DNA of 62,276 nt. Origin: Bacteroidaceae bacterium (GTDB lineage: Bacteria > Bacteroidota > Bacteroidia > Bacteroidales > Bacteroidaceae). Location: NCBI GenBank assembly GCA_017464345.1, contig JAFUAH010000012.1, positions 1 through 62,276 of the forward strand. The letters run 5' to 3'. Positions 29,952 to 62,099 of this stretch are shown in pieces; within the stretch, counting starts at the first letter, position 1; each line of letters opens with the position of its first letter. The position numbers and the translations under genes are program-made. The notes below the pieces were generated by a model that did not search any database, was not told where the DNA came from, and saw only the letters and a program-made list of their open reading frames with translations.

Positions 29952-29982
29952 AGTGCGAGTGTTTTAAGGTATCAGATGGTTG

Positions 29983-30108: not shown

Positions 30109-30118
30109 TGGGAATTGA

Positions 30119-30188: not shown

Positions 30189-30261
30189 TTGTCCTGTACG
30201 GGTCTATGGATGGGTATTACGGGGGATGAAGGGGGGAGAGAGGCTTGTAGGGCTTATGGGG

Positions 30262-47977: not shown

Positions 47978-48143
47978 CGCACCAATAAGGATACAGACGT
48001 TTATTCTTTAGCTGTTTGTTTCCAGATTGCAGCAAAACGATACTACTACAAGTTGGGGGAGATGGGATGGGCCAATAATAGAAATTTCGGAAGGGCACCC
48101 AAAGATCACTTTCGTTTCTCTATGTTCACTTCATGTTCACCAG

Positions 48144-48181
48144 CAAAAGAAAAAGCACCTACAAAATCTTTGTAAGTGCTT
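48144..48181 (-). terminator. Terminator of the interrupted tRNA gene
   Basis: On the minus strand AAGCACTTACAAA (48181-48169) pairs with 48165-48153 with one G-T pair and a 3-nt loop, followed by TTTTTCTTTT. It lies just beyond the 3' end of the tRNA fragment and was presumably its terminator. Confidence 0.75.
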
Positions 48182-48192
48182 AATTTCTTATG

Positions 48193-48236
48193 TGGACCAG
48201 CTAGGGCTTGAATCTAGGACCTCCAGATTATGAGTC
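48193..48236 (-). tRNA. 3' fragment of a tRNA with CAU anticodon (attachment site)
   Basis: Read on the minus strand, 48236-48193 starts GACTCATAATCTGG (anticodon loop CTCATAA, anticodon 48232-48230), continues through an AGGTC variable loop and a TTCAAGC T-loop with paired CTAG stems, and ends with CTGGTCCA. The D arm and the 5' acceptor strand are missing: upstream bases no longer pair with the anticodon stem beyond two positions. This is the classic scar of a tyrosine-integrase element crossing over in the anticodon loop; the restored full tRNA should lie at the far end of the element, outside the window. Confidence 0.75.
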
Positions 48237-48409
48237 ATATTTACGAATTTTGCATGAAATGACATGTTATTGCAAAACACTGTAAATAAAAGGGTTATTT
48301 CTTTTGGTGTTTGCAGAAAATTGTGTAATTTTGCAGCAGTTTCCGTTCACGAATTTCACACGAATTTCACGGAGCGTGTCTCGAAACCCTTATAATTAGG
48401 AGGTTTATT
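48237..48409. promoter_or_regulatory. Integrase upstream region with direct repeats and promoter
   Basis: The region holds TAATTTTG (about 48327-48334) as a -7 element and two tandem ACGAATTTCAC words at about 48349-48371, possible integrase arm sites. A strong AGGAGG site precedes ATG 48410. Confidence 0.5.
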
Positions 48410-49909
48410 ATGGAAAAAGGAAAGTTGAATTTCACTAAAGAAGAAAAATTAGGCACAAGAAAGTATAGCAGCCGTGGCATCTCAAGTCTTGCCAAGTTCA
48501 CTTCTACTAATGGATCTGTATATGGAACACTGGCACTTGATACACGACGGGGTTCTGATGATGACATGCAGGAACTGCCCGTAGCTGTCAGAGTGGCCTA
48601 TAACGGAAAGTCTGTCTATCTGCGCATCGGAAAGAAATACACGATGGAAGAGTGGCTTGAACTCTGTGAGTGTGAGAAGCAGGGACGGAATAAGAAAAGT
48701 GCCGAGCGTAAAGAACTGAAAGCCCTGATGCAGAAAGTGGAGAGTCAAGTCAATCAACTTATTGCTGAGGGTAGTTTCTCGTTGCGCCGTATTCAAGAGA
48801 TCCACCAGGGGAAACCAGACAATGATAGTACCATTTATTCTATATGGGATTCTATTATCGCTTCCAAACAGGAAAGTGAAAAGGCTGGTACGGCCAGATG
48901 TAACAAGGATGTACGTAGGCGCTTTGAAAGGGATATGGGCTCCAAAGTGGAATTTGCCGACATCAACAAATCATTTATCGACAAATGGGTAAAGAAGATG
49001 AAGGAAAACGGGCTAAGTTTGACGACTATAGGCATCACCCTTCGCACGTTTAGAGCCATTGTAAATGCATGCATAGATCGTAAACTCATAAAAGGCAACA
49101 CGAAGGATATGTTTAAAGATACGGGGTATAACAAATCGTGCAGTAGAAAGTACGAGTTCTTGGATGTGCCCACTATGCGAGTACTGTATGGGTTTTGGGA
49201 AAGGGGCGAGGCAAAAGACGAGAAAGGAAAGGAGCTATTTTTTCCCAAAGAGAAGAATGCTATTTTCCGTGATTTGGGTTTATTCCTGTTTATGTATTTG
49301 GGGGATGGGCAGAATCTGGCCGATACGTTACGTCTGACCTATGATGAATGGTATTTTGCCACACACGGTAAGCAACTGAGGTTCCTACGTCATAAGACGC
49401 AAGACAGGAACGAGAGTGCAAGCGAAGTCATATTTCCAGTTACTGCCGAACTGAAAAAGATTATTGACAGATATGGCAACAAGCCGGAACCAGATGCAAG
49501 AGTGTTTCCTATCATGGACAAGATGATAACAGCGGATAAAGAAGTCTGGGTTATCCAACGCTATAACCGCTACATCCGTGAACACATGGCTAAAGTTTCA
49601 GAAATCATAGGATTGGAGCAAAGTCCGACCTCAACGTGGGCACGACACAGTTTTGCCACAAACCTGAATAATTCGGGCAAGGTACCTTATAAATATATAA
49701 GTGATAGTATGGGACATAGTGGCAGTGGGGATGTTACTTCAAACTACATTGGAGCATACCCTCTGGATAAGATGCTGGAGTACAACGCTTATCTGCTGGA
49801 TGAAAATGGAGGAAAGAAAGGTAATGATGACCTGTTGGAACGACTTAAAGGTTTGAGCGAAGAAGATCGAAAAAAGCTTTTAGAGGCTTTATCCAAGTCA
49901 ATGAAGTGA
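48410..49909 (+). CDS. int: Tyrosine integrase of the mobile element
   Basis: A 499-aa tyrosine recombinase of the Bacteroidales element type. The N-terminal part has the arm-binding-like segment (VRVAYNGKSVYLRIGKKYTM), the middle a SAM-like core-binding domain (VEFADINKSFIDKWVKKMKE), and the C-terminal catalytic domain shows ARHSFATNLNNSG (Arg-His), SDSMGHSGSGDVTSNYIG (His and Tyr nucleophile). It lies 170 bp from the tRNA attachment site, as expected for the enzyme that made the insertion. RBS AGGAGG precedes ATG 48410. Confidence 0.9.
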   Translation: MEKGKLNFTKEEKLGTRKYSSRGISSLAKFTSTNGSVYGTLALDTRRGSDDDMQELPVAVRVAYNGKSVYLRIGKKYTMEEWLELCECEKQGRNKKSAERKELKALMQKVESQVNQLIAEGSFSLRRIQEIHQGKPDNDSTIYSIWDSIIASKQESEKAGTARCNKDVRRRFERDMGSKVEFADINKSFIDKWVKKMKENGLSLTTIGITLRTFRAIVNACIDRKLIKGNTKDMFKDTGYNKSCSRKYEFLDVPTMRVLYGFWERGEAKDEKGKELFFPKEKNAIFRDLGLFLFMYLGDGQNLADTLRLTYDEWYFATHGKQLRFLRHKTQDRNESASEVIFPVTAELKKIIDRYGNKPEPDARVFPIMDKMITADKEVWVIQRYNRYIREHMAKVSEIIGLEQSPTSTWARHSFATNLNNSGKVPYKYISDSMGHSGSGDVTSNYIGAYPLDKMLEYNAYLLDENGGKKGNDDLLERLKGLSEEDRKKLLEALSKSMK

Positions 49910-49988
49910 TATTGCCAATGTAAAAATGTTGTGTTTGATGACTTGTTTTAATAGAAAAGCAGTAATTTTGCACTAAAATAAGATAGAC

Positions 49989-51134
49989 ATGAGCAAACTG
50001 ATACATATAAACAAGGAATATGCTGAGTGGATTAAGTCACTTAGCCTACGTTTCCGCCAGAGCCAAATAAAGGCTGCTGTGAGGGTGAACAGTGAACTGT
50101 TGCAGTTTTACTGGTCTTTGGGCAAAGACATAGTAGAGCGTGACATGGAGAATAAATACGGGTCAGGATTCTTCAAAAACCTCAGTCTTGATCTGAAGGA
50201 TGAGTTCCCTGATGTCAAGGGTTTCTCCCCTACTAACCTTGGTTATATCAAGAGATTCTACCTGCTGTATTCCAATGCTTTCGAGATTCACCCCCAACTT
50301 GGGGGCAATTGTCCTCCAGCTGCTGACTATACAAATTACCCCCAAGTTGAGGGTAATTCTAAATCTTCTGAAACGCAGAACGTTGAAGAAATCATTATGG
50401 CAAAAGCGAGTCGTGACATATTCTCTACTCCGTGGGGACATCACAAGTTGCTAATAGACAAATTTCTAAAAGCTCCAGAAAAGGCGATATTCTATGTTCA
50501 TAAGACCGTTGAAAACGGATGGAGCCGTGCTGTGCTTGATAATGTCATCGACACAAAGTTATATGAGCGTGAAGGGAAAGCCGTTACCAATTTCCAATCG
50601 GCTCTGCCAGCTCCATTGAGTGACCTTGCCCAGGAAATCACGCGAGACCCGTATCTGTTCGATTACACCCAGCTTCGTGGGAAATACGATGAGACAGAAT
50701 TGAAAGATGCGTTGATGACGAATGTCCAAAAGCTGCTTCTTGAACTCGGAAACGGCTTTGCATTTATGGGAAGAGAGTACCGTATGGTTGTAGGTGGCGA
50801 AGAACTCTTCTGCGATATGCTGTTTTACAACACGCATATCCACAGTTACGTGATTGCAGAGATTAAGACTCAAAAATTTGAACCATCATTCTTGGGCCAA
50901 CTTAGCGGATATGTTTCTTTTGCCAATCATATTTTGAAGCGTGAAGGTGACAACGACACAATAGGACTGCTTATCTGCAAGAGTAAGAACGAAGTCATGG
51001 CACGTTATGCACTTGAAGGCTATAACCAGCCCTTGGGTATATCAGAGTATGAGTTGTCAAAGGTCTTCCCTGAGAATTTCAAGAGTACCCTTCCCTCCAT
51101 CGAGGATATTGAAAACGAACTGAAAGAACGATAG
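49989..51134 (+). CDS. YhcG/DUF1016 family protein with PDDEXK nuclease domain
   Basis: A 381-aa protein. The N-terminal DUF1016 domain (IKAAVRVNSELLQFYWSLGK, FSPTNLGYIKRFYLLY) is DNA-binding-like; the C-terminal half is a restriction-endonuclease fold with GEELFCDMLFYN (Asp) and YVIAEIKTQKFEP (ExK). YhcG proteins occur across bacteria on defence islands and mobile elements; their substrate is not settled. An insert (HPQLGGNCPPAADYTNYPQ) with repeated PQ..GN words separates the domains. The stop is 2 bp before the next gene, so the two form a tight pair. Confidence 0.85.
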   Translation: MSKLIHINKEYAEWIKSLSLRFRQSQIKAAVRVNSELLQFYWSLGKDIVERDMENKYGSGFFKNLSLDLKDEFPDVKGFSPTNLGYIKRFYLLYSNAFEIHPQLGGNCPPAADYTNYPQVEGNSKSSETQNVEEIIMAKASRDIFSTPWGHHKLLIDKFLKAPEKAIFYVHKTVENGWSRAVLDNVIDTKLYEREGKAVTNFQSALPAPLSDLAQEITRDPYLFDYTQLRGKYDETELKDALMTNVQKLLLELGNGFAFMGREYRMVVGGEELFCDMLFYNTHIHSYVIAEIKTQKFEPSFLGQLSGYVSFANHILKREGDNDTIGLLICKSKNEVMARYALEGYNQPLGISEYELSKVFPENFKSTLPSIEDIENELKER

Positions 51135-51136
51135 TT

Positions 51137-52081
51137 ATGATGGGCTTTATACGTAAGTTGATGATTCTTCCGAGGCTATTGAAGATTCTCAAACTGATAG
51201 ATCCGAAGAAACTTGAAGGGGTTAACGACATTCTGGAGCGCGTCTATCCTGGCATCAAGGACGAGATAAGGAGACTTGTTGAACGTGGAGATGTCCGTGC
51301 CATGAACAAGACACTCGATTATATCAATAATCATGGTGGTGCCGAGAAGATTGCAGAATACTACAATAGTGCCAACCAGGAGGGACAAAAGGAAATGCTC
51401 TCTGCATTCAACGAGGCTTTCAGACCTGGCGCTCCATTCGAAGATGCCGTTCTGACGCTGGATAGTCTTGCAAAGGTGAAGGACATGGGAGTTTATATCC
51501 AACTCTTCGGCGACGTGAAAGATAGCGTCGTCATGGCCAGCATCAAACTTGGCTATCGAACTGTTGGCGACTGGCAGACATTCGTTCGCAGGCAGCATGA
51601 GGCCAGCAATGATGTGCTGCTTGGCGTACTTGATGAAATACAGGAGGGTGACACGAAAGTTGAGAACCCGATTGAGGTTGAGAACAAGGCTGTTCAGACA
51701 GGCAACCAACAAGACAAACCATCAGGATACGATTTCCCAATGGAACTCATGGGTCAACTTTATGAATACGACTCTATCGTTTTCAAGCATATCTCCTCAG
51801 AATATGAGTTTGCAAGTATTATGCTGAGGAAACCTCATCAGGAGAAATTAGTAGAGTGCTCCGGCAAGAAAGTTCTGGCCTATCACATCTTGTGGAGATT
51901 GCGTAGCCTGTTGCCCGAAAATATGCGAGAGGCATGGATAAACAATATCGCTGATGAATGTGGCTACGATGTCACCACTATCAGCAAGAAATACAAAGAC
52001 GAAACAAACATGAAAGACCAGAACTTGACGCTACTGAAGGAATTGAGTTCACTATTTGACAAGTACGACACGCAGAAATAA
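51137..52081 (+). CDS. Unknown protein paired with the YhcG nuclease
   Basis: A 314-aa helical, charged protein that I do not recognise. It begins MMGFIRKLMILPRLLKILKL, a hydrophobic amphipathic start that could touch a membrane, then a helical core (AMNKTLDYINNHGGAEKIAE) and a C-terminal part (RLRSLLPENMREAWINNIAD, DVTTISKKYKDE). It starts 2 bp after the nuclease gene and lies between integrase and excisionase, a common cargo position. It might be a partner, inhibitor or specificity factor of the nuclease. Confidence 0.65.
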   Translation: MMGFIRKLMILPRLLKILKLIDPKKLEGVNDILERVYPGIKDEIRRLVERGDVRAMNKTLDYINNHGGAEKIAEYYNSANQEGQKEMLSAFNEAFRPGAPFEDAVLTLDSLAKVKDMGVYIQLFGDVKDSVVMASIKLGYRTVGDWQTFVRRQHEASNDVLLGVLDEIQEGDTKVENPIEVENKAVQTGNQQDKPSGYDFPMELMGQLYEYDSIVFKHISSEYEFASIMLRKPHQEKLVECSGKKVLAYHILWRLRSLLPENMREAWINNIADECGYDVTTISKKYKDETNMKDQNLTLLKELSSLFDKYDTQK

Positions 52082-52361
52082 CGTGCCCCCACAATCAGCA
52101 AATTCGGCGCATATTCGATGTGAATATGTGCCGTTTTTCGTTTCATGCAATGCCATGAACAACCATTTCCACGCATTTCCACGCAAAAGGCATTCCATGA
52201 AACACCAAAACACTTCTTTATTGCCATTCCTTTTCATCTTATCTTGTTGTATTTTAGAAAGTTATATTCAGCAGGAATAAAAGTGCAAAAAGTTTGAGTG
52301 CCACTTGCGTCCACTTTTCCACGCATGACCTTTGCAGCGGATTTTAAAAAATATTGCAAAT
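52082..52361. other. Non-coding stretch before the excisionase-like gene
   Basis: This 280-bp region has two tandem CATTTCCACG words near 52168, echoed by CACTTTTCCACGCAT near 52312, and a TGACCTTTG promoter-like word at about 52326. The repeated TTCCACGC words may be binding sites for the replication or excision proteins that follow. No gene is evident. Confidence 0.45.
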
Positions 52362-52634
52362 ATGAGTGGAAACTTTATTATGATTTCGGAGGAAGACCTT
52401 GAGAAGGCTTTCACCAAGATGCTCGAGAAATATCTCAGCACACACCAGTTAGCAGAGAAGTCCTCTACTGAAGAGGACAAGTATTTATCAAGTGACGAGG
52501 CTTGTGACTACATGCACGTTACGCCCAGCACGCTATGGAGGATGCGGCAACGAGGCGAGATAGTGGTTCACAAGGTTGGTGGTCGCTGCCTTTACTCCAA
52601 GAACGACTTGGACACATTAATAAATAAAGGATAA
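52362..52634 (+). CDS. Helix-turn-helix excisionase-family protein
   Basis: A 90-aa protein. After a helical start comes a MerR-like/HTH_17 domain (YLSSDEACDYMHVTPSTLWR, MRQRGEIVVHKVGGRCLYSK, NDLDTLI). Such proteins on Bacteroidales elements act as excisionases or regulators of replication genes. ATG 52362 gives a natural start; a TTG at 52332 is in frame. It ends 3 bp before the ATPase gene. Confidence 0.8.
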   Translation: MSGNFIMISEEDLEKAFTKMLEKYLSTHQLAEKSSTEEDKYLSSDEACDYMHVTPSTLWRMRQRGEIVVHKVGGRCLYSKNDLDTLINKG

Positions 52635-52637
52635 GGT

Positions 52638-53579
52638 ATGGAAATGGACATTATCAACCAATCGTTCAAGGCTCTCCAAGAGAGTGAGCCTGTAGATGGA
52701 GGCGGATTCCACGTCGAGGCGATGAACAAGTGCATCAGCCATGCCCATCAGTTGCCACCATTGGTTTCGCTCTATCCTGATATTGTACTCGAAGGTGATC
52801 TTAGCATCATCTTCGGGCAGTCAGGCATCGGCAAAACCATCTTCGCTATGCAGGTTGCCCGCTATATCGCTGAGAATGGAAAACGGCTGCTGTATGTGGA
52901 CTGTGAAATGACACCCCGACAGTTGGGTAACCGCTACGAGACGGCCAACTTTCCTCCCACCTTCCTTCGTGCAGAGATGGACAGAGAGCATCCTGCCGAG
53001 GATGTTCTTAAAGGGATAGAGGAAGTGGCTGCGGCTAATCATGTGGAAGTGGTGTTCATCGACAACATCACGGCCTTAGGGCAGTCGCTTGACAGGAGTG
53101 CCGATGCTGGTGCCTTGATGGCCTCGCTGAATGCGCTGAAGAAAAAGTACAACTGGACATTGGTGGTGCTCAACCATGTGCCTAAGATGTTCTCAGGCAA
53201 TGTTCCTCTTTCCCTCTCAGCCATGCAAGGGTCTGCCAAGATAAACCAGCTGATAGATGATGTTATCGGATTGGCTCAATCCGCCATCGATTCAAGTCTC
53301 GTTTACGTGAAGCAATGTAAGTGGCGTAATGGTGAGTTGACGATGGGGGCTGACCATGTGGCGGTCTATGAACGCCGCAAGGATGAAGATGGCAATCTGG
53401 GGTTCATCAGTCGTGGTTTCGGCACAGAACAGGAGCACCTGAGCGTTGAGAACGGCAACGATAGGGAAGAAATGAAGGCCCGCATAAGAGAACTCTCTGC
53501 TAAAGGGATGACGCAGACGGCCATTGCCAATCAACTCGGCACCTCGCAAAGTAAGGTATCAAGGCTACTGAAAGAGTAG
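52638..53579 (+). CDS. RepA-like AAA ATPase (helicase of element replication)
   Basis: A 313-aa RecA/RepA-type ATPase. Walker A is GQSGIGKT (LSIIFGQSGIGKTIFAMQVA), followed by LLYVDCEMTPRQLGNRYE and a Walker B-like VEVVFIDNITALGQ. The C-terminus carries a helix-turn-helix (GMTQTAIANQLGTSQSKVSR). It resembles the RepA helicases of mobilisable Bacteroidales elements and plasmids, which replicate or unwind the excised circle. The Toprim-like gene follows, a usual partner. Confidence 0.82.
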   Translation: MEMDIINQSFKALQESEPVDGGGFHVEAMNKCISHAHQLPPLVSLYPDIVLEGDLSIIFGQSGIGKTIFAMQVARYIAENGKRLLYVDCEMTPRQLGNRYETANFPPTFLRAEMDREHPAEDVLKGIEEVAAANHVEVVFIDNITALGQSLDRSADAGALMASLNALKKKYNWTLVVLNHVPKMFSGNVPLSLSAMQGSAKINQLIDDVIGLAQSAIDSSLVYVKQCKWRNGELTMGADHVAVYERRKDEDGNLGFISRGFGTEQEHLSVENGNDREEMKARIRELSAKGMTQTAIANQLGTSQSKVSRLLKE

Positions 53580-53648
53580 TCGCTGATTATTCATTATTCA
53601 CATTATTCATTCTGCATAATTGCATAATTTGCATAAACTGAATAAGAC

Positions 53649-54329
53649 ATGGACGATAAAGAACTGAAACAGATACTTGCAACCAAGGCTCCTGCCTGTG
53701 AACGGTCATTCATAGAGATTCCGAGGGAAGATGTAGTTCCCCGTCTTTCCTCTTTGGCCGACTATCTGGACAAAGTTGTGAGATATGATACGAAGATGAT
53801 GAACCGCATTGATGACCTCGTTATGCGTTATCGGACAGGAGCGGCTTACAAGACGATGAACGAACACTTTGGCACTGTTCTGCCTCGCATCAATCAGAAA
53901 GGGATGATAGTTGGCGGAAATGTCATCTACTACAATACCGATGACGGAACCATGCTTCAGAAGGACGGACTCGTTGACCATCTCTATTCCTGGTATGCCT
54001 TCGACTATTATACAGACCCTAACGTGTTCTTTGGTGAGCATCTTTGTCGTGGCAGACAGACTGCCATCGTCCAAGAAGAAAAGACTGCAATGCTTGGAGC
54101 ACTGGCCTATCCTGAAATCGATTGGCTGGCAGTCGGTGTCGGCAATAACCTGACGGACGAGATGATGAAGAAGTTCATTGGCCGACAGGTCATCCTTTTC
54201 CCTGATGATTTCTGCTTCGACTTCTGGTCGGAACACTTCGGCAGTAAGTTCAAGGTGGATGACAGTTTTACCCGACGTGACATCAACCAGTATCTGGTAG
54301 ACTACATTCATAGCCAACAAGTACCGTAA
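53649..54329 (+). CDS. Toprim-like primase-type protein (DUF6371-like)
   Basis: A 226-aa protein. The segment FFGEHLCRGRQTAIVQEEKT has the Glu of a Toprim domain and QVILFPDD its Asp pair, with GVGNNL between them. The N-terminal part (MKMNR-like helix and GGNVIYYNTDDGTMLQKDG) resembles proteins found next to RepA helicases on Bacteroidales elements. A priming or DNA-processing role is inferred. Short direct repeats (GCATAATT, TTCATTATTCA) in the 69-bp gap upstream may be replication-related. Confidence 0.65.
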   Translation: MDDKELKQILATKAPACERSFIEIPREDVVPRLSSLADYLDKVVRYDTKMMNRIDDLVMRYRTGAAYKTMNEHFGTVLPRINQKGMIVGGNVIYYNTDDGTMLQKDGLVDHLYSWYAFDYYTDPNVFFGEHLCRGRQTAIVQEEKTAMLGALAYPEIDWLAVGVGNNLTDEMMKKFIGRQVILFPDDFCFDFWSEHFGSKFKVDDSFTRRDINQYLVDYIHSQQVP

Positions 54330-54352
54330 GCCGAAAAAACGGCGGGGGAATG

Positions 54353-54562
54353 AAGGGCTTGCCCTTGATATAGCCCACTATAACTACGAGCTGCGCATCG
54401 TAGTTGTGGGCTCTCCCGAGGGGCTTAAGGCTTTGCCCTAAGAACCCACCAAGGGCTGCTCGCCCTATGGAACCTCGCAAGGGGGTGGCCCTCCCCCTTG
54501 ACCGCCCCGCTTAGTGGCATCTGCCCCTAAGAACCCTGAGCAGGGAGTGACTCTCTCCCTGC
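54353..54562. other. oriT-like array of hairpins upstream of the relaxase gene
   Basis: In a 314-bp gap with no gene there are at least four hairpins: AAGGGCTTGCCCTT (54353-54366); a 15-bp interrupted stem 54372-54412 with arms AGCCCAC and AACTACGA; a G5/C5 hairpin (54481-54497); and GCAGGGAG/CTCCCTGC (54540-54562). AAGGGC/GCCCT and CCTAAGAACCC words recur between them. The array ends about 80 bp before the MobV gene, the expected position for a transfer origin. The nick site cannot be picked by eye. Confidence 0.6.
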
Positions 54563-54643
54563 ACCCACCAATCAGGGTTCACACCCGATACCCCTATTGG
54601 GAAGAATAACACAATAGTATAAACATAATAAAATAGTAATAAT

Positions 54644-55966
54644 ATGGCAACAATAGCAAAAGCATCTGAGCACATCAAACCGTGCAACATTGCTCAGTGC
54701 GAACGACACAACAGGCGAGATGCTGAATATATCAAGTCTCTCGACCCGACACGGTTATACATACGCCTCGACTTGACCCACAACAATGAATGTTATGTCG
54801 CACCAGGCATGGAGGGTGTTACCCTTCAGCAGCACTATGACCATCTCAAAGTACTGGTCAAGGAAAAGACAGGCAGGGCAATGCAGGAGAAGGACGTAGA
54901 ATATAAAGACAAGAAAGGCGTGACGCGAGTACGCAAAGGGAGCAGTCCTATCCGTGAAGGTGTGGTCAATATCAAGCCCGACACTACAATGGACGACTTG
55001 CTGCAATATGTCAATCGGGTACATGAGAGGTGGGGCATCACTGCCATACAGATACACATGCACAGAGACGAAGGGCATTATGAAAACCCTGAGGACGAAT
55101 CGACATGGCAGCCTAACCTTCATGCACACATCATCTGGGACTGGATAGACCATACAACAGGCAAGTCCTTCAAGTTGAATGCCGAAGATATGTCAGCAAT
55201 TCAAGATATGGTAGCAGAGACTTTGGAGATGGAACGTGGAAAGCGAAAGTCTGAGACAGGACGCGACCATCTGGAGCGCAACGATTACATCATCCAGGCA
55301 CAGAAGGAGAAAAGCGCAAAACTTGATGCCGAGATTGCGGAGAAGCGGGACAGACTCGATGCTGAGAACGGCAATGCCATCAAGTCAGGTGTGGCCAACC
55401 TCTTTGGAAGGGGGAAATATGCCGATATGGAGAGGGAGAACAAGTTGCTGAAAGAGAAACTGACGAAGCAAAAGGCGGATTTACAGCAGAAATATCAACA
55501 AGCCTTAGATGTTGCGCAAACCAGAAAAGCCCAACAACTCGCCGAGAAAGACAAGCAAATCGAAGAACTCCAGACCAAGTTAAAGCGCGAGGTGTTCAGC
55601 CATCAGCAGGATAATCAGGAAAAGGACAGAATTATCCGTCAAAAGGAGAGCATCATCAATGATTATCGTGAGCGTCTTGGTCATTATCTGAACACTCTCT
55701 CTGAACTGTTGCGTGGTGCCGTGAAGGCTGTTATCGATTATGTTCAGTTAGGCTATCGCTGTTTCAACAATCGTCAGGAAGGCGATGTGAGACGCTATAT
55801 GAATAGCCAGCCTGATAAGGAAGAAGCAGCAAACATGGTGCTTTGTGCCTCACAGCCCTTCTTGAAAGCCGATGAATCAGAACGGGTGAAAGGGCAACTC
55901 ACCAACATTTTGAAGAACATGAAGGAAGGACACCTGCAAAGTCGAAGTCACGGATTCCACATGTGA
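54644..55966 (+). CDS. mobV: MobV-family relaxase (Mob/Pre)
   Basis: A 440-aa relaxase that would nick the transfer origin and lead the strand during mobilisation. The N-terminal domain carries the MobV signatures HNNECYV, VVNIKPDTTMDDLLQYVNRV and the metal-binding histidine cluster (IQIHMHRDEGHYE and NLHAHIIWDWI). After residue 180 the protein is a long coiled coil (KEKSAKLDAEIAEKRDRLDA, LKEKLTKQKADLQQKYQQAL), usual for Bacteroidales MobV. ATG 54644 directly follows the hairpin region. Confidence 0.88.
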   Translation: MATIAKASEHIKPCNIAQCERHNRRDAEYIKSLDPTRLYIRLDLTHNNECYVAPGMEGVTLQQHYDHLKVLVKEKTGRAMQEKDVEYKDKKGVTRVRKGSSPIREGVVNIKPDTTMDDLLQYVNRVHERWGITAIQIHMHRDEGHYENPEDESTWQPNLHAHIIWDWIDHTTGKSFKLNAEDMSAIQDMVAETLEMERGKRKSETGRDHLERNDYIIQAQKEKSAKLDAEIAEKRDRLDAENGNAIKSGVANLFGRGKYADMERENKLLKEKLTKQKADLQQKYQQALDVAQTRKAQQLAEKDKQIEELQTKLKREVFSHQQDNQEKDRIIRQKESIINDYRERLGHYLNTLSELLRGAVKAVIDYVQLGYRCFNNRQEGDVRRYMNSQPDKEEAANMVLCASQPFLKADESERVKGQLTNILKNMKEGHLQSRSHGFHM

Positions 55967-55977
55967 TACTTCATCAA

Positions 55978-56015
55978 ATATAAGCCAGCCGACATTATCG
56001 ACTGGCTCGTATATT
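55978..56015. terminator. Hairpin between the relaxase gene and the convergent cargo cluster
   Basis: AAGCCAGCCG and CGACTGGCT-like arms (about 55981-56009) pair with one bulged base on each side, extended by ATAT/ATAT. It lies in the convergent spacer between the relaxase gene and the SprT-like gene. No clear T-run, so efficiency is uncertain. Confidence 0.45.
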
Positions 56016-56085
56016 ATAGAAGAAAGTCTATCCCTCCTGACAGGCCTATACGAAAGAGCTCCAAGCTTATTGATTACGTTTGTTT

Positions 56086-56583
56086 TTATGTGTTCAACTT
56101 CGTTCTTTCCCGCAGTAGAATGCCTTTGTATGCATCCTTAACACTCCTTTCTCCATAATGACTTTGAGGCGAGAACAACCGCTTCCTGACAAAATCTATC
56201 TTTTGCTCATGCCAATAGGATTCGCCAGGCTCGATGTACATTTTTTCGAAAGGAAATTTAGTCTCTCGCCATCCGTTATAATCGTTGTCAATCAGCGCTG
56301 TCTCTCTTAGCTTTCTTTCAACCAGCGAATAGAATTCCTTGTCATGTCTGCCGTCTGGCAAAGCTAAATGGCACAACTCGTGTATGATAGTAGTTTGTAT
56401 GCCAATATAGTCACATTCAAAGAGCATGTGATAGCCGTATGTGATATAGTATGTTCTCGGAACGGCCCTGGCGAGACAACGTTTCATAAAGAAGCATCCC
56501 ACGTGGACATTGATGCAATCCGACATCACCTCGTCGCGGAAGTAGGCATTCGCAATTCGTAGAGTTTCTTGCTCGAAATACAT
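56086..56583 (-). CDS. SprT-like zinc metalloprotein
   Basis: A 165-aa protein with HELCH at residues 68-72 (TTIIHELCHLALPDGRHDKE), a zinc-peptidase HExxH motif followed by a third His at about 80, the layout of SprT-like domains. SprT-type proteases cut proteins crosslinked to DNA in eukaryotes; in mobile elements the role is unknown. It is the last gene of the minus-strand cluster and starts immediately after the stop of a 41-codon ORF (TAAATG). Confidence 0.72.
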   Translation of the reverse strand: MYFEQETLRIANAYFRDEVMSDCINVHVGCFFMKRCLARAVPRTYYITYGYHMLFECDYIGIQTTIIHELCHLALPDGRHDKEFYSLVERKLRETALIDNDYNGWRETKFPFEKMYIEPGESYWHEQKIDFVRKRLFSPQSHYGERSVKDAYKGILLRERTKLNT

Positions 56584-56709
56584 TTATCCGTATACTAATA
56601 GGCGTATGAACGTTTCAATAGGAGTCTTTTTGAATTCCTTGTCCCGCAATTCAGCTAAAGCCTGCGCTGTCTGCCATACCTCGAATAATGAGTTATATTC
56701 CTTTTCCAT
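56584..56709 (-). CDS. 41-aa small protein in the cargo cluster
   Basis: ATG 56709 to TAA 56586-56584 encodes 41 residues beginning MEKEYNSLFEVWQTAQALAE and ending FIRLLVYG, a helical charged peptide. It fills the gap between two cluster genes (14 bp after the first, 0 bp before the SprT-like gene), and the tight spacing supports real translation. Function unknown. Confidence 0.6.
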   Translation of the reverse strand: MEKEYNSLFEVWQTAQALAELRDKEFKKTPIETFIRLLVYG

Positions 56710-56723
56710 GTTGTGTTTTGTAT

Positions 56724-57113
56724 TTATCGGTTGTTGTCGTAAAAGTCGCATTTCTTCCAGTCCAAGTCATCATAATAGTCCTCACTGTTGTAAGTATGAT
56801 AGTCGCATTCCACTTTCAATTCAATGTTGAAGTCACGCACCCATAGTAGATCGAAGATGGAAAACTCCATGTGCTCAAAGAGGTCGTGGAAAGGATAGAT
56901 GAGATGCATATCCTTGGTCATCTCTCTGTCAAGTCCTTCGTTGTAGTTGTCAGGCTCTCCTTCTGCAAAGACACCATATAGCATGTCGTTCTCAGTCTCG
57001 ATACGAGAGTCAAGGCTTGTGATTCGAAAACTTCCAGCGGCACTGGTGTCATAGATGGGCATAAACCTATCAAGAGAGCCATTCAATACGGCCCACATCT
57101 TCTTAGCACGCAT
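56724..57113 (-). CDS. Unknown acidic protein of the cargo cluster (possibly joined to the previous ORF)
   Basis: About 129 residues from ATG 57113 (MRAKKMWAVLNGSLDRFMPI). It is acidic with a D/Y-rich tail (YNSEDYYDDLDWKKCDFYDN). It overlaps the upstream ORF by 31 nt in the -1 frame. In that frame homologous-looking sequence continues smoothly from the upstream product, so the two could be one gene joined by a frameshift or broken by one. No domain recognised. Confidence 0.6.
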   Translation of the reverse strand: MRAKKMWAVLNGSLDRFMPIYDTSAAGSFRITSLDSRIETENDMLYGVFAEGEPDNYNEGLDREMTKDMHLIYPFHDLFEHMEFSIFDLLWVRDFNIELKVECDYHTYNSEDYYDDLDWKKCDFYDNNR

Positions 57114-57469
57114 GGTCTGTATTGATGAATCGCTGAATAGCCATAACCGAGGAAACACATTCCCTCCACTTCCCAAGAGCCAGGCAAATGAGTATCTTTG
57201 GTGGTCTGATAGAGGGCAATCGTCCGTTTCCGCATTTCTTTCAACTGAATTGTAAGGGCTTCGTTGAAATCATGGAGTAGCTGCTTGTATTTTTCATCCA
57301 TCACGAGCATATCATTCAATACATTCTTCCTGATGCCAAGCAATCTCCTGATGGCAAACACTTCCGTCTCGTCGTGCGTACATCTTCTCTCATTGTCGAA
57401 GTAGATACTCAGGATCTCCTGTTCTATTTCCCTGACAGCTTTGGTGTTGAAAATCTCTTGTACTGTCAT
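57083..57469 (-). CDS. Unknown helical protein of the cargo cluster
   Basis: A 128-aa mostly helical protein (VREIEQEILSIYFDNERRCT, AIRRLLGIRKNVLNDMLVMD, YKQLLHDFNEALTIQLKEMR). The final residues (YRPCVLRRCGPY) look random and lie where the next ORF begins in the -1 frame, so the natural product may extend into it. It begins 17 bp after the FtsZ C-domain-like gene. I do not recognise the family. Confidence 0.62.
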   Translation of the reverse strand: MTVQEIFNTKAVREIEQEILSIYFDNERRCTHDETEVFAIRRLLGIRKNVLNDMLVMDEKYKQLLHDFNEALTIQLKEMRKRTIALYQTTKDTHLPGSWEVEGMCFLGYGYSAIHQYRPCVLRRCGPY

Positions 57470-57486
57470 AGTCCTATGTTTTTATT

Positions 57487-57909
57487 TTACTTGCTGCATA
57501 TCATCAAAAGACTGAGACTTTTGTCCAGAGAGTCATCAATGCCCAAACCCCATATTACAGAAACTTCATTTGGGAAGCATCCGATGATGTCTTTAACGTT
57601 GCTCATCTCACTCATCTTAATTGGGTGCAGGCGTGAGGTCTTGAATAGAAGTATCACCTTATTATATTGTGAAAGGTCAACGGAAGGGTTGTCAGATAGT
57701 TGATGAAAGATTTGTTCCATCCTCCCAACTCCGTTATTATTGCTCAAAGATATTTTGCATCTTTGAATATTCGATTCTTTGTAAAGATATAGCAAATCTT
57801 TCTTGTAAAGGTGAACCATCATGGATGTTGTAGCAACTTCATCAATGACTCCTTCAAGTACCGATTTACGGACTTGTAATTGGATTATGTCAGTTTCAAT
57901 TCTTATCAT
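57487..57909 (-). CDS. FtsZ C-terminal-domain-like protein (second half of a split FtsZ)
   Basis: A 140-aa protein. From residue about 55 it tracks the FtsZ C-terminal domain: GVGRMEQIFHQLSDNPSVDL matches the GENRxxEAxxxALxxPLL helix, YNKVILLFKTS the following strand, MSEMSNVKDIIGCF the next helix, and SVIWGLGIDDSLDKSLSLLM the closing strands (canonical GxxxDxxLxxxxxVTVIATG). The first 50 residues are not FtsZ-like. The start overlaps the stop of the GTP-binding half by 14 bp, so both are made together. In FtsZ this domain supplies the residues that complete the GTPase site of the neighbouring subunit, but that catalytic T7 loop is absent from both halves. Confidence 0.65.
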   Translation of the reverse strand: MIRIETDIIQLQVRKSVLEGVIDEVATTSMMVHLYKKDLLYLYKESNIQRCKISLSNNNGVGRMEQIFHQLSDNPSVDLSQYNKVILLFKTSRLHPIKMSEMSNVKDIIGCFPNEVSVIWGLGIDDSLDKSLSLLMICSK

Positions 57910-58549
57910 GTCGTTTGGGGATTATAATGCGACTGAGTTTTGCTAAGATAGAAGGCTGCTTGGGTTTGCCTGCTGTTCCCATATAATCGACAATTGTCTG
58001 AATAACCTTACTGATAAGCTCATCAGCCTTCATAAAAGCCTCTGTCATAGACAGGTCTTTATATTTACGAATGATATGTTGGTTATTAGGTAGAAACAGA
58101 GCATCGACCTCCTTTGATAGTTCCTCAAGGCCGTTTAGGGCTTGATAATATTTCTTATCTCCCTCAAAAGCAAAGGGAAGCGTTACGACACCAATCGTTG
58201 TAATGCTTTTCTTTGTAGACTCACGTGCAATTACAGGCGATGCCCCTGTACCACAGCCGCCACCCAGACAAGAGACAATAAACAGCGTTGATGTTTCTTC
58301 ATCCAGCAAACTCTTCACCTCTGCCATTTGTCCTTCTGCTGCAGCCCGTGCCTTTTCAGGTATATTACCAGCCCCAAGCCCTTCGGTGCCGAGTTGAACT
58401 ATGGCAGGGGCCATTGATCTTTCAAGTACGGAGGAATCCATATCGCAGGCTACTAACGATAAATTGCTCTCACTGTTACGGCTAATATGGTTCAGAATGT
58501 TATTTCCGCCACAGCCAACCCCGATTATTTTAATTTTTCTTGCACTCAT
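57896..58549 (-). CDS. FtsZ-like GTP-binding domain protein (accessory tubulin homologue)
   Basis: A 217-aa protein equal to the N-terminal half of FtsZ. It shows the first nucleotide loop (KIIGVGCGGNNILNHI, residues 7-22), GLGAGNIPEKAR (57-68), the tubulin signature GGGCGTG (96-102), TIGVVTLPFAFEG (118-130) and LEELSKEVDALFLPNN. The central helix begins (DELISKVIQTIVDYMG), then a basic tail (ILAKLSRIIIPKRHDKN) replaces the T7 loop. It should bind GTP but not complete a normal FtsZ catalytic interface. The adjacent gene resembles the missing C-domain. A housekeeping ftsZ must exist elsewhere. Promoter and operator-like palindrome lie at 58575-58613. Confidence 0.85.
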   Translation of the reverse strand: MSARKIKIIGVGCGGNNILNHISRNSESNLSLVACDMDSSVLERSMAPAIVQLGTEGLGAGNIPEKARAAAEGQMAEVKSLLDEETSTLFIVSCLGGGCGTGASPVIARESTKKSITTIGVVTLPFAFEGDKKYYQALNGLEELSKEVDALFLPNNQHIIRKYKDLSMTEAFMKADELISKVIQTIVDYMGTAGKPKQPSILAKLSRIIIPKRHDKN

Positions 58550-58574
58550 GATGATATAATTTTGATTTTGAGTG

Positions 58575-58613
58575 CAAAGATATAATGAAGCTATGCCGTA
58601 TTGGGGCATAGCT
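58575..58613 (-). promoter_or_regulatory. Promoter and palindromic operator of the FtsZ-like gene
   Basis: On the minus strand TATCTTTG (58582-58575) is a -7 element. Directly upstream, AGCTATGCC (58589-58597) and GGCATAGCT (58605-58613) form a perfect 9-bp inverted repeat over the -33 region. A repressor bound there would block the promoter; the WYL protein of the same cluster is the obvious candidate. Confidence 0.65.
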
Positions 58614-58708
58614 TTGAGGAAAGTTTCAAAGGAAACAGGTTTTTTGCTTATTTTTTCTAAAGATTGACGAAACTAAGCCGCTCGTGATATATAGTTAAGC
58701 ATTGAGAG

Positions 58709-58933
58709 TTACTTTTGCTTTACATCAAGATATGTATTCCAAGCGCCCATAATAGGCTTGATGCTCAACCCATACTTTCGCTGGAATGCAGCTATAACAA
58801 TCTCTTGACCTTGAATGGTACCAGTAAGATTATTACTGCCTCTGTCGAAAGACACCTCTACCTCCATACCTTTCTCAACTTTACAGCCATTGTATTGACC
58901 AGACTGCTTAATAGAAACTTTAAATAATGCCAT
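58709..58933 (-). CDS. 74-aa small protein, DUF6140-like
   Basis: A 74-aa beta-rich protein (FKVSIKQSGQYNGCKVEKGM, then TGTIQGQEIVIAAFQRKYGL). Small proteins with this pattern, which I recall as DUF6140, recur on Bacteroidales mobile elements; no function is known to me. It lies 20 bp after a UDG-fold gene and 159 bp before the FtsZ-like gene. Confidence 0.62.
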   Translation of the reverse strand: MALFKVSIKQSGQYNGCKVEKGMEVEVSFDRGSNNLTGTIQGQEIVIAAFQRKYGLSIKPIMGAWNTYLDVKQK

Positions 58934-58953
58934 AATAGTTTAAATTTGATGTA

Positions 58954-59733
58954 TTATTTTGATTTACTTTTGTGAATTAAATCGTATATGTCGTCAGCCA
59001 TTCTTTTGATATTTTGCTCACTATGCCAGCCCAACTGTCTGTTGACGCAATAAAATGGAATGGCCATTTCTTTCAAGTCATTTGATAGCTCATGATATAC
59101 TGCAGCTCCTAATAAAACGACACAGCGTGGCTTTGTTAGTTTGACTAAATCGCGAATATGCTTATGACAGATGTCTCGTACACCAGAATGGTTCTCTTTG
59201 TCGTACTTTCTTATAATGGAGTTTAGCCCCTGAATATTTTGGGTAGACATCGGGAACAGATTAGTATCCATTACCCTTTTCTCAATAATTTCTGTAAGCT
59301 CCTGACGAGTTGTTGTGGTTGCAGGGAATTCATGGCGATAAATCCTGACCAGCAACTCGCACATATAGTAAGGATAGTGGTTTCTCTTTTCTTTGGTTAA
59401 ATCCCACCATTCTCCTTTTTTGCGAGCATTGTCAAATGCGAACCATTGCAATCGACTCCTCCACAAACAGGGGAAATCTTCTGGTATAAGCTTTTTAGAA
59501 GGGTCTAAGAGTCTTTTTGCCTTTCCATCCCAATTATTACGATTCCACAGTATAAATCGGCCTGGCCCAGGATTAATGCCAACAAAGAGTATCTCAGGCT
59601 CCCCTAATAATGGACTTTTAAGATCCAACCAGCCAAGATAATCAGGATATTGTTCCACATTCTCCTTTATGTTATCGAGTATAGAGACGATACCCTTTGA
59701 GATTCCAAGGTATTCTTGTTGCAATGGTGTCAT
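58954..59733 (-). CDS. Uracil-DNA glycosylase-superfamily protein B
   Basis: A 259-aa protein of the UDG fold. The first motif is clear: EILFVGINPGPGRFI (active-site loop with GxNPG). Later PRCVVLLGAAVYHEL is the conserved strand-helix and FYCVNRQLGWHSEQN the second-motif region, where an H-S pair replaces the usual HPS. The middle insert is rich in aromatic residues. UDG-fold enzymes cut modified bases from DNA; some recently described ones act on phage DNA. It lies 10 bp after a second UDG-like gene. Confidence 0.72.
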   Translation of the reverse strand: MTPLQQEYLGISKGIVSILDNIKENVEQYPDYLGWLDLKSPLLGEPEILFVGINPGPGRFILWNRNNWDGKAKRLLDPSKKLIPEDFPCLWRSRLQWFAFDNARKKGEWWDLTKEKRNHYPYYMCELLVRIYRHEFPATTTTRQELTEIIEKRVMDTNLFPMSTQNIQGLNSIIRKYDKENHSGVRDICHKHIRDLVKLTKPRCVVLLGAAVYHELSNDLKEMAIPFYCVNRQLGWHSEQNIKRMADDIYDLIHKSKSK

Positions 59734-59743
59734 ATTGTATGGT

Positions 59744-60541
59744 TTAGAATTGAGGATTTTCTCTTACAAATGCCCTGAAGGGGCTTAGCACCTTTTCAAG
59801 CACCTTCCAGTCTTCGGCTCCTGAGGGATGAAAGGCTTTTATCACGACCACATTTTCTGTCGGGTAATACCAGAGGCAGGTCTTCATATCATGAACCATT
59901 TTTCCGTTCTCCAATATGTAATCGCCGCCAAAGCATTGATATTGTTTGCCGCTTAAGTATTTCTTGGTGACGAAGTCGAAGATGGAATCACCTGTCGCAT
60001 TACAGCATACAATGATGTTGGGGCGAAGGATGTCCAACTCTTTCTTCAGAAATAGTTCGTCGCGTTCTAATGCATCACTGATGGCTTTTTCGCTGACAGT
60101 CTTGCTTCCAGCGAGTTTCTTGGATTCGACGAATGCGAAAGCCTTGTTGTTCCAACAGACTCTCACCTCAGAAAGCCGTTTGTTGACGTATTGGTCATTG
60201 ACGTTATTATCCGCACTGATTTCCATCAGCCCATACAGCATCTTTGCAAGATTCTTCAAAAACCGCTTCTTTAGATTTCTATTATCGCGAGCCTTCTCTG
60301 AACCTATCTTATCAAGAAGCATCTCACGGGTGTCATACCCATAGCCGTCAGGACAGTCCTTCAACATGAACAACATCCTTCTTGGCGACTGTTCCCAAAG
60401 AAAATCGACATCTATGTTCGCGTCGTTCTTATACATAATGCCGTCTCGGCAAAACTCGTCCCTTGCCGATTCGCCGTAACTACTTTCCCATTGTTCAAAG
60501 AGTTTGGTCAGTAATTCATTGTAGTTTACATAATGATTCAT
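59744..60541 (-). CDS. Uracil-DNA glycosylase-superfamily-like protein A
   Basis: A 265-aa protein with a more diverged UDG fold. First-motif region RRMLFMLKDCPDGYGYD, strand-helix LRPNIIVCCNATGDSIFDFV, and a second-motif region VVVIKAFHPSG with the HPS of UDG-superfamily enzymes. The middle is basic (RDNRNLKKRFLKNLAKMLYG). It is distinct from its neighbour, so the two probably have different substrates or form a heteromer. It starts 11 bp after the exonuclease gene. Confidence 0.66.
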   Translation of the reverse strand: MNHYVNYNELLTKLFEQWESSYGESARDEFCRDGIMYKNDANIDVDFLWEQSPRRMLFMLKDCPDGYGYDTREMLLDKIGSEKARDNRNLKKRFLKNLAKMLYGLMEISADNNVNDQYVNKRLSEVRVCWNNKAFAFVESKKLAGSKTVSEKAISDALERDELFLKKELDILRPNIIVCCNATGDSIFDFVTKKYLSGKQYQCFGGDYILENGKMVHDMKTCLWYYPTENVVVIKAFHPSGAEDWKVLEKVLSPFRAFVRENPQF

Positions 60542-60552
60542 ATTGCCATTAC

Positions 60553-61044
60553 TTATAGTATTTCCATTGCTATCGCGGCACAGGCCTCAGCATCAGCAAG
60601 AGCGTGGTGATGTTGCTCCAAGTGGTATCCACACTCTGCGGCGACAGTATGGAGCTGGTGGTTGGGCAGCCAAGGGTGAGCGCGGCGGGAGGCCTGACAG
60701 GTGCAGTAGAACTGATAATCAGGGTAGTCCATTTGGTAACAGCGGAATACGGCCTTTAGGCAACTCTCGTCGAAGCTCTTGTTATGGGCCACAAGGGGCA
60801 GACCTTCAATCAGCGGCTCTATCTGCGCCCAGACATCAGGGAAGACGGGTGCCTCCTCCGTATTCTCACGGGTAAAGCCGTGAACCTGCGTACACCAAAA
60901 ATTGTAGTAGTTCGGCTCGGGCTTAATGAGGGAGTAGAACTTATCCACAATCTCACCCCCACGAACCACGACCACGCCTACAGAGCAGACACTCGTCCGC
61001 TCGTTGTTTGCCGTCTCAAAGTCTATTGCAGCAAAGTCTCTCAT
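60553..61044 (-). CDS. DEDDh 3'-5' exonuclease (DnaQ-like)
   Basis: A 163-aa DnaQ-fold exonuclease with all four motifs: FAAIDFETANN (Asp, Glu), LVAHNKSFDESCL (Asp), HHALADAEACA (His and Asp). The FWCTQVHGFTREN segment between them matches the DnaQ/PolC proofreading family. Its ATG overlaps the WYL stop by 4 bp, so both are translated together. It would remove 3' ends from DNA or RNA; as part of the cluster it may process DNA opened by the glycosylases. Confidence 0.88.
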   Translation of the reverse strand: MRDFAAIDFETANNERTSVCSVGVVVVRGGEIVDKFYSLIKPEPNYYNFWCTQVHGFTRENTEEAPVFPDVWAQIEPLIEGLPLVAHNKSFDESCLKAVFRCYQMDYPDYQFYCTCQASRRAHPWLPNHQLHTVAAECGYHLEQHHHALADAEACAAIAMEIL

Positions 61045-61955
61045 TTCTCAACACTATATTTATTCCACATTCGCTTGATCTTGCCTGCAATCTCTTTTCG
61101 GAGCCAGATGGGTTCAAGCACCTCGATATCCTCGCCCATAGAGAGCAGTTCCTGTTGAAAGTCGAACTCTGGGCAGAGACGCAGTTCGAAGATGCTGTAT
61201 TCCGTCTGCCTTTCTGTTTCCTGCTGCGAATGGTGGAGGGGTAGGGAGCGCAGGTAGTTGGCTTGGCCAGCCGAAAGCTTCAGCACCACCCGCTGCACCA
61301 TCGACTCCGATTTGGCGATGATGCCGTAATAGTTGTCGAAGAACTCGGAGGGGATGAAGTCTTCGCGCATCTTGAACCGCTTGTCTGTCAGCACCTCTAT
61401 GTCGTAGATACGGTCGACGGCATAAATCGTCATCCGCTTATAGTAGGGATTCCACGCCAAGAGATACCACCGCTGTTTGAACAGCTTCACGGCGTATGGC
61501 TCTATCGTGAAGGTGTTGCTGTCCTCGCGCCAATAGCTCTGATAGGTGATGCGGATGGGGTGGCTCTTCTTCATCGCCTCGATGATGGTTGGAAGATACT
61601 CTTGGCCCGATGGAATCTCTTCGAGGATGATACGTTCCTTCATCTGCTGGTTGTCTATCAGCAAATTGCTTACAGAAATAGTGTTGAGCAGCCAGCTGCG
61701 GAGACTGCCTCGCCTGATCTCGTCGGCATTGGCTATATAATAGTGGTACCCGCCTTTACGTTCACACTCAATGACGAGGCCAAACATCTCCTCTGCGGCA
61801 ATACGCCACTTATGGAACGTACGGAGTGCCAGTTCAACGCCCTCACTCATGTCATTATCGAGCCACTTCTCGTTAATCTCCTCAAAGGTGATGCGCCCAG
61901 CCTTGTAGATGGTCTCCACAAGCCAAACATACTTATTCAACAGGTTCTTCGCCAT
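61041..61955 (-). CDS. WYL-domain transcriptional regulator
   Basis: A 304-aa regulator. An N-terminal winged-helix part (LLNKYVWLVETIYKAGRITF, LALRTFHKWRIAAEEMFGL) precedes a WYL ligand-binding domain (PIRITYQSYWREDSNTFTIE, PYAVKLFKQRWYLLAWNPYY) and a WCX-like C-terminal domain. WYL regulators of this shape (BrxR, CapW types) repress phage-defence operons and are released by nucleic-acid or nucleotide signals. It is the first gene of the cluster. ATG 61955 is used; it follows a TAAATTTG promoter element. Confidence 0.86.
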   Translation of the reverse strand: MAKNLLNKYVWLVETIYKAGRITFEEINEKWLDNDMSEGVELALRTFHKWRIAAEEMFGLVIECERKGGYHYYIANADEIRRGSLRSWLLNTISVSNLLIDNQQMKERIILEEIPSGQEYLPTIIEAMKKSHPIRITYQSYWREDSNTFTIEPYAVKLFKQRWYLLAWNPYYKRMTIYAVDRIYDIEVLTDKRFKMREDFIPSEFFDNYYGIIAKSESMVQRVVLKLSAGQANYLRSLPLHHSQQETERQTEYSIFELRLCPEFDFQQELLSMGEDIEVLEPIWLRKEIAGKIKRMWNKYSVEK

Positions 61956-61976
61956 ACATTCTATATATTTATGCTG

Positions 61977-61984
61977 CAAATTTA
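61977..61984 (-). promoter_or_regulatory. Promoter -7 element of the WYL-led cluster
   Basis: TAAATTTG on the minus strand, about 22 bp before ATG 61955. The upstream -33 region is AT-rich without a perfect TTTG. Confidence 0.5.
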
Positions 61985-62099
61985 CGGAAAAGATATGTAA
62001 AATAAAGGCGCAAGTTGGCGTGTCCATCATTATTTAGACATTTTTAGTAAACTGGAGGGGCAAAGTTACAAAATTGCAAGTTATAATAAGTATGAGGGT

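Follow-up and report, generated by a model that had tools for sequence, protein, structure and literature searches.

The window, by which we mean the whole analysed stretch of 62,276 nucleotides (nt) of contig JAFUAH010000012.1 (assembly GCA_017464345.1, a Bacteroidaceae bacterium), carries two overlapping minus-strand genes, here called N and C, that divide FtsZ between them. N (57896..58549, ATG at 58549) encodes a stand-alone FtsZ GTPase domain of 217 amino acids (aa) with the tubulin signature GGGCGTG and a basic tail, and C (57487..57909, ATG at 57909) encodes 140 aa that comprise the end of helix H7, a remnant of the T7 loop in which D38 is kept, and what by sequence profile is the FtsZ C-terminal domain. 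The two genes share 14 nt (57896..57909, minus strand), at the end of N and the start of C, and this overlap of stop and start likely couples their translation. The gene lengths, positions and overlap reported in an earlier note made from the sequence alone are confirmed. Because N-only and C-only genes are also found in other bacteria, amid genes of defence type, the pair is a kept design and not a broken gene.

The reading of N as the GTPase part of FtsZ, with its nucleotide loops and GGGCGTG signature, was borne out by a Pfam Tubulin match (E 5.3e-30) and by an NCBIfam ftsZ match (TIGR00065, E 2.8e-48) that covers model positions 18-206 of 353 and reaches 165 bits against a cut-off of 295.2. 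In a profile alignment, N residues 2-194 correspond to FtsZ 18-210 (E 4.8e-61, 48% identity to the FtsZ profile); identity to Bacteroidales FtsZ is ∼40-50% among the matches listed, and a PDB sequence search with a profile of five N proteins returned 49 FtsZ sequences at 1e-30 or better. The nucleotide loops T1-T6 can be aligned to those of FtsZ and look intact, and GGGCGTG stands in six of six N proteins where FtsZ has GGGTGTG. The FtsZ part of N thus includes the nucleotide-binding face and does not extend past helix H7: all six proteins stop at the same point, shortly after H7, and continue into a basic tail with a net charge of +4 to +8, and the T7 loop NxDxxD is not in the N chain. Net basic character is the sole trait common to the tails. 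A membrane-targeting amphipathic tail was considered and rejected, the hydrophobic moment having clearly beaten shuffled sequences in one of six tails, with two borderline and three not.

C is much more diverged than N. On its own it falls under the Pfam FtsZ_C cut-off (12.8 bits, E 0.15), an NCBIfam scan of C gave no relevant match, and a PDB sequence search with the C profile gave none up to E 10. When a profile of three C proteins was aligned with 20 full-length Bacteroidales FtsZ (hhalign), C residues 20-138 corresponded to FtsZ 200-323 with a probability of 98 and an E of 2.6e-13, and none of the controls (a reversed C, 20 column shuffles of C and 8 further families from the islands) exceeded a probability of 0.8. 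A model of the FtsZ C-part is matched by each of the three C proteins, and a search with one C sequence also hits ordinary FtsZ genes in their C-terminal part, directly after the N match; in G219:C6, for example, N matches 255893-256465 and C matches 256451-256807 within one 446-aa frame. The hidden Markov model check proposed in the earlier note therefore succeeded for N with library models and for C from profile to profile, with C alone under the Pfam cut-off, and the C-terminal domain pattern that the note had seen in C is present at the level of profiles, the note having named the lack of an FtsZ C-domain fold as grounds against its reading. Together N and C span the FtsZ core with ∼10 residues of overlap, the cut lying at the end of helix H7. 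C has the T7 side: the T7 counterpart is the remnant that opens C (residues 30-47), so the claim of a basic tail instead of a T7 loop stands for the N chain and fails for the pair. The second T7 Asp is kept in three of three C proteins (D38 in the window). At the position of the first, the window C has Tyr, the C protein of Prevotella sp. E2-28 plasmid pE2-28 (locus L072) has Asp and that of genome G756 (L089) has Ser, and the T7 Asn is not kept. C stops at the last core strand, 'MICSK', without the FtsZ linker or the conserved C-terminal peptide. The L089 row of the C alignment starts at a TTG within the promoter; the likely start is an ATG nine codons on, and the first nine or so residues of that row are probably leader.

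We searched samples of 393 order, 399 family and 208 phylum genomes, each taken evenly from a larger group. The element is also present on a contig of a Prevotella metagenome-assembled genome (MAG; L061), where 10,191 bp match the window at 99.27% identity; the N and C frames are both open there, and each protein differs from its window counterpart by one amino acid. Five more proteins are N-only, four from the order sample (L073, L074, L075 and L076) and one from the family sample (L093). The six N proteins form one clade with a support of 100/100, apart from 34 FtsZ (23 from the order sample, with L013 and L030 dropped, 10 other matches and one Segatella plasmid FtsZ), and the clade spans three families of the order; the outcome in which homologues would be only full-length FtsZ genes, which the earlier note had set against its own reading, is thus not what we find. 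In the closest N pair, dN is 0.068 and dS 0.331 (dN/dS ∼0.2), and N is under purifying selection in this comparison. Counting the window and its near-copy once, N and C stand together at one of eight loci, with five N without C and two C (L072 and L089) without N: in stop-to-stop frames of at least 30 aa, over about 20 kb of DNA per locus (4.9 kb for L093), the N-only loci gave no C and the C-only loci no N at E <0.1. The two-part complex proposed in the note is therefore not the rule, and the search for the same pair in other Bacteroidales elements that it proposed gave L061 and no other locus, the halves occurring apart elsewhere.

In the order sample, where a single N query matches 376 of 393 genomes at 1e-12, N-type genes were found, among the matches listed, in the window's own genome and in G274, G185, G081 and G151, a count to be read as at least that many because weaker ones may be missed; the family sample at 1e-75 gave the own genome and G512, and the phylum sample at 1e-70 the own genome only. 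C-type genes in the family sample are those of the own genome and G756, 12 of 399 genomes matching at 1e-8 and the other 10 matches lying in frames of 296-441 aa. A weak C-like match (G136:C63:6992-7246, E 0.002, 31%) in a 110-aa frame may be a short C-type gene or chance. Among plasmids, one C relative was found, L072; 117 plasmid records match N, with an ftsZ annotation on 11 of 20 among the matches listed, 7 match the N of L076, of which 5 are annotated ftsZ, and N-type genes may lie among plasmid records beyond the matches listed. No relative that would point to a viral origin was found in four viral-contig scans, and the 23 phage-collection records matching N are below 60% identity. PHROGs gave a weak PhuZ match for N (E 0.00097) and two families for a 129-aa gene of L072.

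Around the eight loci, a set of partners recurs, namely a helical protein (a label from reading the sequence), ZapA, metallopeptidases, MoxR-vWA, IetA-like AAA, GmrSD-type proteins and a WYL regulator. The helical protein accompanies N, C or both, and N and C appear to be alternative or complementary components of a single type of module. The order in L072 is WYL, exonuclease, two GmrSD (DUF262) genes, the 129-aa gene, ZapA, helical protein, AAA, C, bpMoxR, vWA and a YgjP-like metallopeptidase; in L076 it is two DUF262-type genes, small genes, MoxR, vWA, a YgjP-like metallopeptidase, N and AAA; and in L089 it is a glycosylase-like gene, DUF6140, C, a ZapA homologue and the helical protein, with WYL nearby. 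L074 has N, a 340-aa protein, a SprT-like peptidase, a 113-aa protein, the helical protein and a glycosylase-like protein, with AAA and a DUF2201 vWA-like gene on the opposite strand, and in L075 and L073 N stands with DUF262-type genes and relatives of the 340-aa protein. ZapA is a partner of FtsZ, and a ZapA-family gene is present in both C-only loci (26.9 against a cut-off of 23.8 in L072; 22.8, just below it, in L089). HExxH metallopeptidases are found at four of the eight loci (window, L072, L074 and L076) and MoxR-vWA at L072 and L076; a census with the L072 vWA at E 1e-40 gave one of 198 order genomes, G151. GmrSD restriction-type proteins are identified by Pfam in L072, where its two DUF262 proteins were run, and by homology of one protein each at L073, L075 and L076; the L072 proteins resemble several PADLOC models, and one DUF262-type protein of L076 has no PADLOC match. 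The IetA-like AAA of L072 (PADLOC) has a counterpart in L076 that is 62% identical. Between loci, identity is 38% for C, 56-74% for the helical protein, 76% for ZapA, 78-82% for WYL and 26-30% for the glycosylase-like proteins, with the exonuclease, like the helical, ZapA and WYL proteins, within 56-82%. The 309-, 340- and 370-aa genes that accompany N in L073-L075, three loci of one bacterial family, belong to one protein family, whose profile shows no link to FtsZ and of which the one member scanned has no Pfam match above cut-off.

In the window, the islet runs on the minus strand from WYL through a DnaQ-like exonuclease, two glycosylase-like genes, DUF6140, N, C and the helical protein to a SprT/WLM-like metallopeptidase. 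The WYL-WCX transcription regulator (61041..62030; Pfam; 78-82% identical to L072 and L089) is probably the regulator of the module. It is followed by the DnaQ-like 3'-5' exonuclease (60553..61044; Pfam and NCBIfam; 80% identical to L072), by two proteins weakly like the uracil-DNA glycosylase superfamily, both below cut-off, of 265 aa (59744..60541, E 0.042, homologue in L089) and 259 aa (58954..59733, E 0.025, homologue in L074), and by a 74-aa DUF6140 protein (58709..58933, E 1.4e-14). Beyond C lie the helical partner gene (56724..57469) and the SprT/WLM-like zinc metallopeptidase with the motif HELCH (56086..56583; WLM E 2.8e-5, 24.7 bits against a cut-off of 26). The helical gene is broken in the window into open reading frames 57083-57469 and 56724-57176 and is one 248-aa frame in L061; decay and a sequencing error are indistinguishable as causes of the break. 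No MoxR or vWA is among the 18 window proteins scanned (46997-62030). Tyrosine recombinases and a YhcG-type PDDEXK nuclease (49989-51134) adjoin the islet. One tyrosine recombinase (48410..49909, plus strand) is probably that of the mobile element, and the plus-strand frame at 54644..55966, with no Pfam hit at 0.001, we take to be a relaxase-like mobilisation protein; a search for att sites by direct repeats gave nothing convincing. The claim that the gene pair lies in a mobile element is supported, the window element being one of Prevotella-type bacteria, of gut and rumen.

Upstream of N lies a dyad operator (58588..58614, no strand assigned) with 10-bp perfect arms, AAGCTATGCC/GGCATAGCTT, and a 7-bp spacer, together with a minus-strand Bacteroidota -7 promoter box (TATCTTTG, 58575..58582). 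The consensus of this box is TAnnTTTG. The same unit, a TGCC-N7-GGCA palindrome followed at a fixed distance by TTTG, precedes N by ∼50 bp in the window and in L076, and C by as much in L089; at a like distance it precedes the ZapA-containing genes and the AAA-C genes in L072 and the genes for a 138-aa protein, MoxR and vWA in L076. The window site has the full TAnnTTTG, as do the C site of L089 and three sites in L072, and the L076 sites have TTnnTTTG. The palindrome with TTTGC was expected 0.01 times in the window and found once (1 of 100 shuffles had one), and expected 0.00 times in L072 and found five times, two of these being palindromes already counted that were read in reverse; in 54 FtsZ loci that partly overlap (180,003 bases), a looser form turned up once. 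Three L076 sites have perfect arms of 11-12 bp around a 5-bp spacer, the arms in L089 are 14 bp at 93% and those of one L072 site 21 bp at 81%, and L072 8200-8310 has no arms of 8 bp or more. The own genome has six loose operator matches against one in a backward control, with TAnnTTTG only at the window's. One palindrome of this genome close to the window operator (TGCCCCGTTACGGCA, G000:C16:18652-18687, L101) lies at the start of a glycosyltransferase-like gene. With a WYL regulator and inverted repeats at a promoter, the window has the make-up of a defence locus under WYL (BrxR/CapW-type) control, and by analogy we infer that the WYL protein would bind the dyad.

Compared with full-length FtsZ, to which N aligns at 18-210 and C at 200-323, the islet has two chains instead of one, with the T7 loop and C-domain outside the GTPase chain, GGGCGTG in place of GGGTGTG, no C-terminal peptide, and for N 165 of the 295.2 bits of the family cut-off. 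ARC3 of plant chloroplasts is like N in being derived from FtsZ and in lacking the FtsZ C-domain, but it is eukaryotic, is fused to other sequence and has no defence context. A title among the references of PMC5877594 calls it a chimera of prokaryotic FtsZ. In the available text of Kaur et al. 2020 (PMC7159879), MoxR-vWA systems with rare FtsZ/tubulin-superfamily effector domains and GTPase systems with tubulin genes are described, and these conflict systems are, as far as that text goes, the nearest published kind. L072 and L076 share with the MoxR-vWA ternary systems a MoxR (PF20030 bpMoxR in L072), a vWA, a metallopeptidase and an FtsZ-type part, whereas half-FtsZ genes are not described in the part of that paper available and MoxR and vWA are missing among the scanned window proteins. 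According to the portion of PMC9122601 consulted, the defence-island WYL regulator BrxR binds repeats of 11 bp separated by a 5-bp spacer, a geometry equal to that of the L076 sites and again a pairing of WYL regulator and promoter inverted repeats; here, binding by the islet's own WYL protein is presumed. CapRelEbc (PMC13423816) is likewise an immune protein whose trigger involves the T7-loop face of FtsZ, but in the available text it relies on the host's whole FtsZ and the system encodes no FtsZ part. The earlier note knew of no system with this arrangement, and our literature search, with subscription papers largely outside it, found no description of separately encoded FtsZ halves.

FtsZ subunits stack by fitting their T7 side to the GTP side of the neighbouring subunit, as the accessible parts of two papers have it (PMC8456036, PMC13423816). 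Because N keeps only the GTP side and C only the T7 side, capping of an FtsZ filament or subunit is expected, and because single-face halves are expected to cap and ARC3, according to the available text of PMC13335998, offers a precedent by inhibiting Z-ring assembly in chloroplasts, we favour a division-arrest effector. We therefore tentatively propose, with slightly less than an even chance of being right, a defence-type module under WYL control in which the FtsZ half would dock on the FtsZ of the host and block division. With the same reserve, N and C may be members of a 'half-FtsZ' set used by WYL-regulated defence-type islands of Bacteroidales to arrest division, and the effector may, at the same odds, be held in check by partner proteins and the WYL regulator. 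Each half, keeping one stacking face, would dock on a host FtsZ subunit in a way that cannot be extended, and the window element would supply both faces at once. Once the module is derepressed or triggered, the half-FtsZ would cap or poison host FtsZ polymers and division would stop, so that an infected or stressed cell would be held until nucleases encoded next door come into play or it dies; the helical protein, the ZapA-like protein, the metallopeptidase and the AAA/MoxR-vWA machines might load, restrain or remove the half-FtsZ. A decoy or poison of host FtsZ is favoured over a DNA-moving filament. All four order-sample genomes with an N-only gene have a second FtsZ-type match, and a target therefore exists there.

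Several observations weigh against this proposal of division arrest. Only eight loci are known; the operator was not found at four of them (L073, L074, L075 and L093), and L076, which has it, shows no WYL homologue in 20 kb. Of 10 islet proteins, only the exonuclease and WYL have PADLOC matches better than E 0.01, and both are generic. The assembly from which the window comes is 61% complete and yielded no FtsZ besides N. An AlphaFold2 model of C from the single sequence has a mean predicted local distance difference test score (pLDDT) of 37.8 and is of no use, so the fold of C rests on profiles. The shuffle-test fractions for the six N tails (0.073, 0.002, 0.83, 0.34, 0.34 and 0.053) leave membrane targeting unsupported.

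Other explanations account for parts of these data. The half-FtsZ could instead be a decoy or sensor that mimics the surface bound by phage FtsZ inhibitors (the T7 side in C, the GTP side in N), with an inhibitor bound to the decoy, or the loss of a normal contact, setting off the metallopeptidase, AAA or MoxR-vWA machinery and the nucleases. We consider this, the chief rival, somewhat unlikely. It is in line with the activation of CapRelEbc only by the complex of phage T7 Gp0.4 and host FtsZ, Gp0.4 being modelled on, and protecting, the T7-loop (synergy-loop) side, which is the side that C represents (PMC13423816, available text), and C, which varies more between loci than the helical, ZapA and WYL proteins, would suit a variable target. 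Yet C is not the fastest gene, the glycosylase-like neighbours being at 26-30%, the N-only islands have no T7 side and would need another trigger, and neither N nor C has a fused signalling domain. A machine in which N and C reassociate and polymerise, as a switchable filament or a DNA-moving device, finds some backing in the 14-nt overlap of two genes that jointly span the FtsZ core, in nucleotide loops that look intact and in the second T7 Asp kept in C, but since N and C stand together at only one of eight loci an obligate two-part filament is not the rule. The changed first Asp and Asn of the T7 loop in the window C, the basic tail of N where T7 should follow, and the want of a partition-type partner among the islet genes scanned also speak against such a machine, which we hold to be quite unlikely.

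Very unlikely, in our view, is a processing unit in which N and C act as adaptors that present host or ZapA-bound FtsZ to the metallopeptidase or AAA and so degrade or remodel the Z-ring: the four loci with HExxH metallopeptidases and the AAA and MoxR-vWA of L072 and L076 fit this idea, and the lack of a peptidase homologue at E 1e-3 in L073, L075 and L089 (the 4.9-kb L093 was left out) does not. The break in the neighbouring helical gene, and N and C frames that are one base apart, could be taken for the marks of an ordinary FtsZ that has decayed, been split by a frameshift or been misassembled. The open frames of L061 with one amino-acid difference each, the 100/100 N-only clade with its shared end point, the dN/dS of ∼0.2 and the C-only genes at two other loci rule out a decayed FtsZ and leave this whole group of explanations extremely unlikely. 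A programmed frameshift giving one N-C chain is not favoured either, because C is found alone elsewhere and the shared open stretch is short.

A broader proposition, which we regard as evenly balanced, is that these loci represent an undescribed class of mobile WYL-controlled Bacteroidales immune modules that are built on separately encoded FtsZ halves and would present the GTP face or the T7 face, or the two together, to host FtsZ or to phage FtsZ inhibitors, coupling phage sensing to a division-ring switch. Normal FtsZ is one chain, and it takes two subunits to complete a GTPase site. A natural family with one face is a ready-made tool for testing end capping and the independence of the FtsZ domains, and it would show that bacteria or their mobile elements have made components of conflict systems out of the division machinery. 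Taken with an immune protein that senses a phage protein on FtsZ, as the available text of PMC13423816 describes, it also makes the division ring testable as a guarded target.

Further FtsZ genes outside the half-FtsZ set were observed along the way. A 317-kb plasmid of Segatella hominis (NZ_CP137560.1, L095) carries at 29007-30374 a full-length FtsZ whose branch in the tree is long. ParA and RepB genes lie close to it, and the plasmid bears an AAA gene, a WYL gene and a vWA-type homologue as well. The FtsZ of a MAG contig with Clostridium in its title (JAMPGR010000001.1, L063) groups with Bacteroidales FtsZ, and the genome is probably mislabelled. Two or three FtsZ-type genes, some of them adjacent, are present in several genomes (G031, G145 and G240; L067 and L069).
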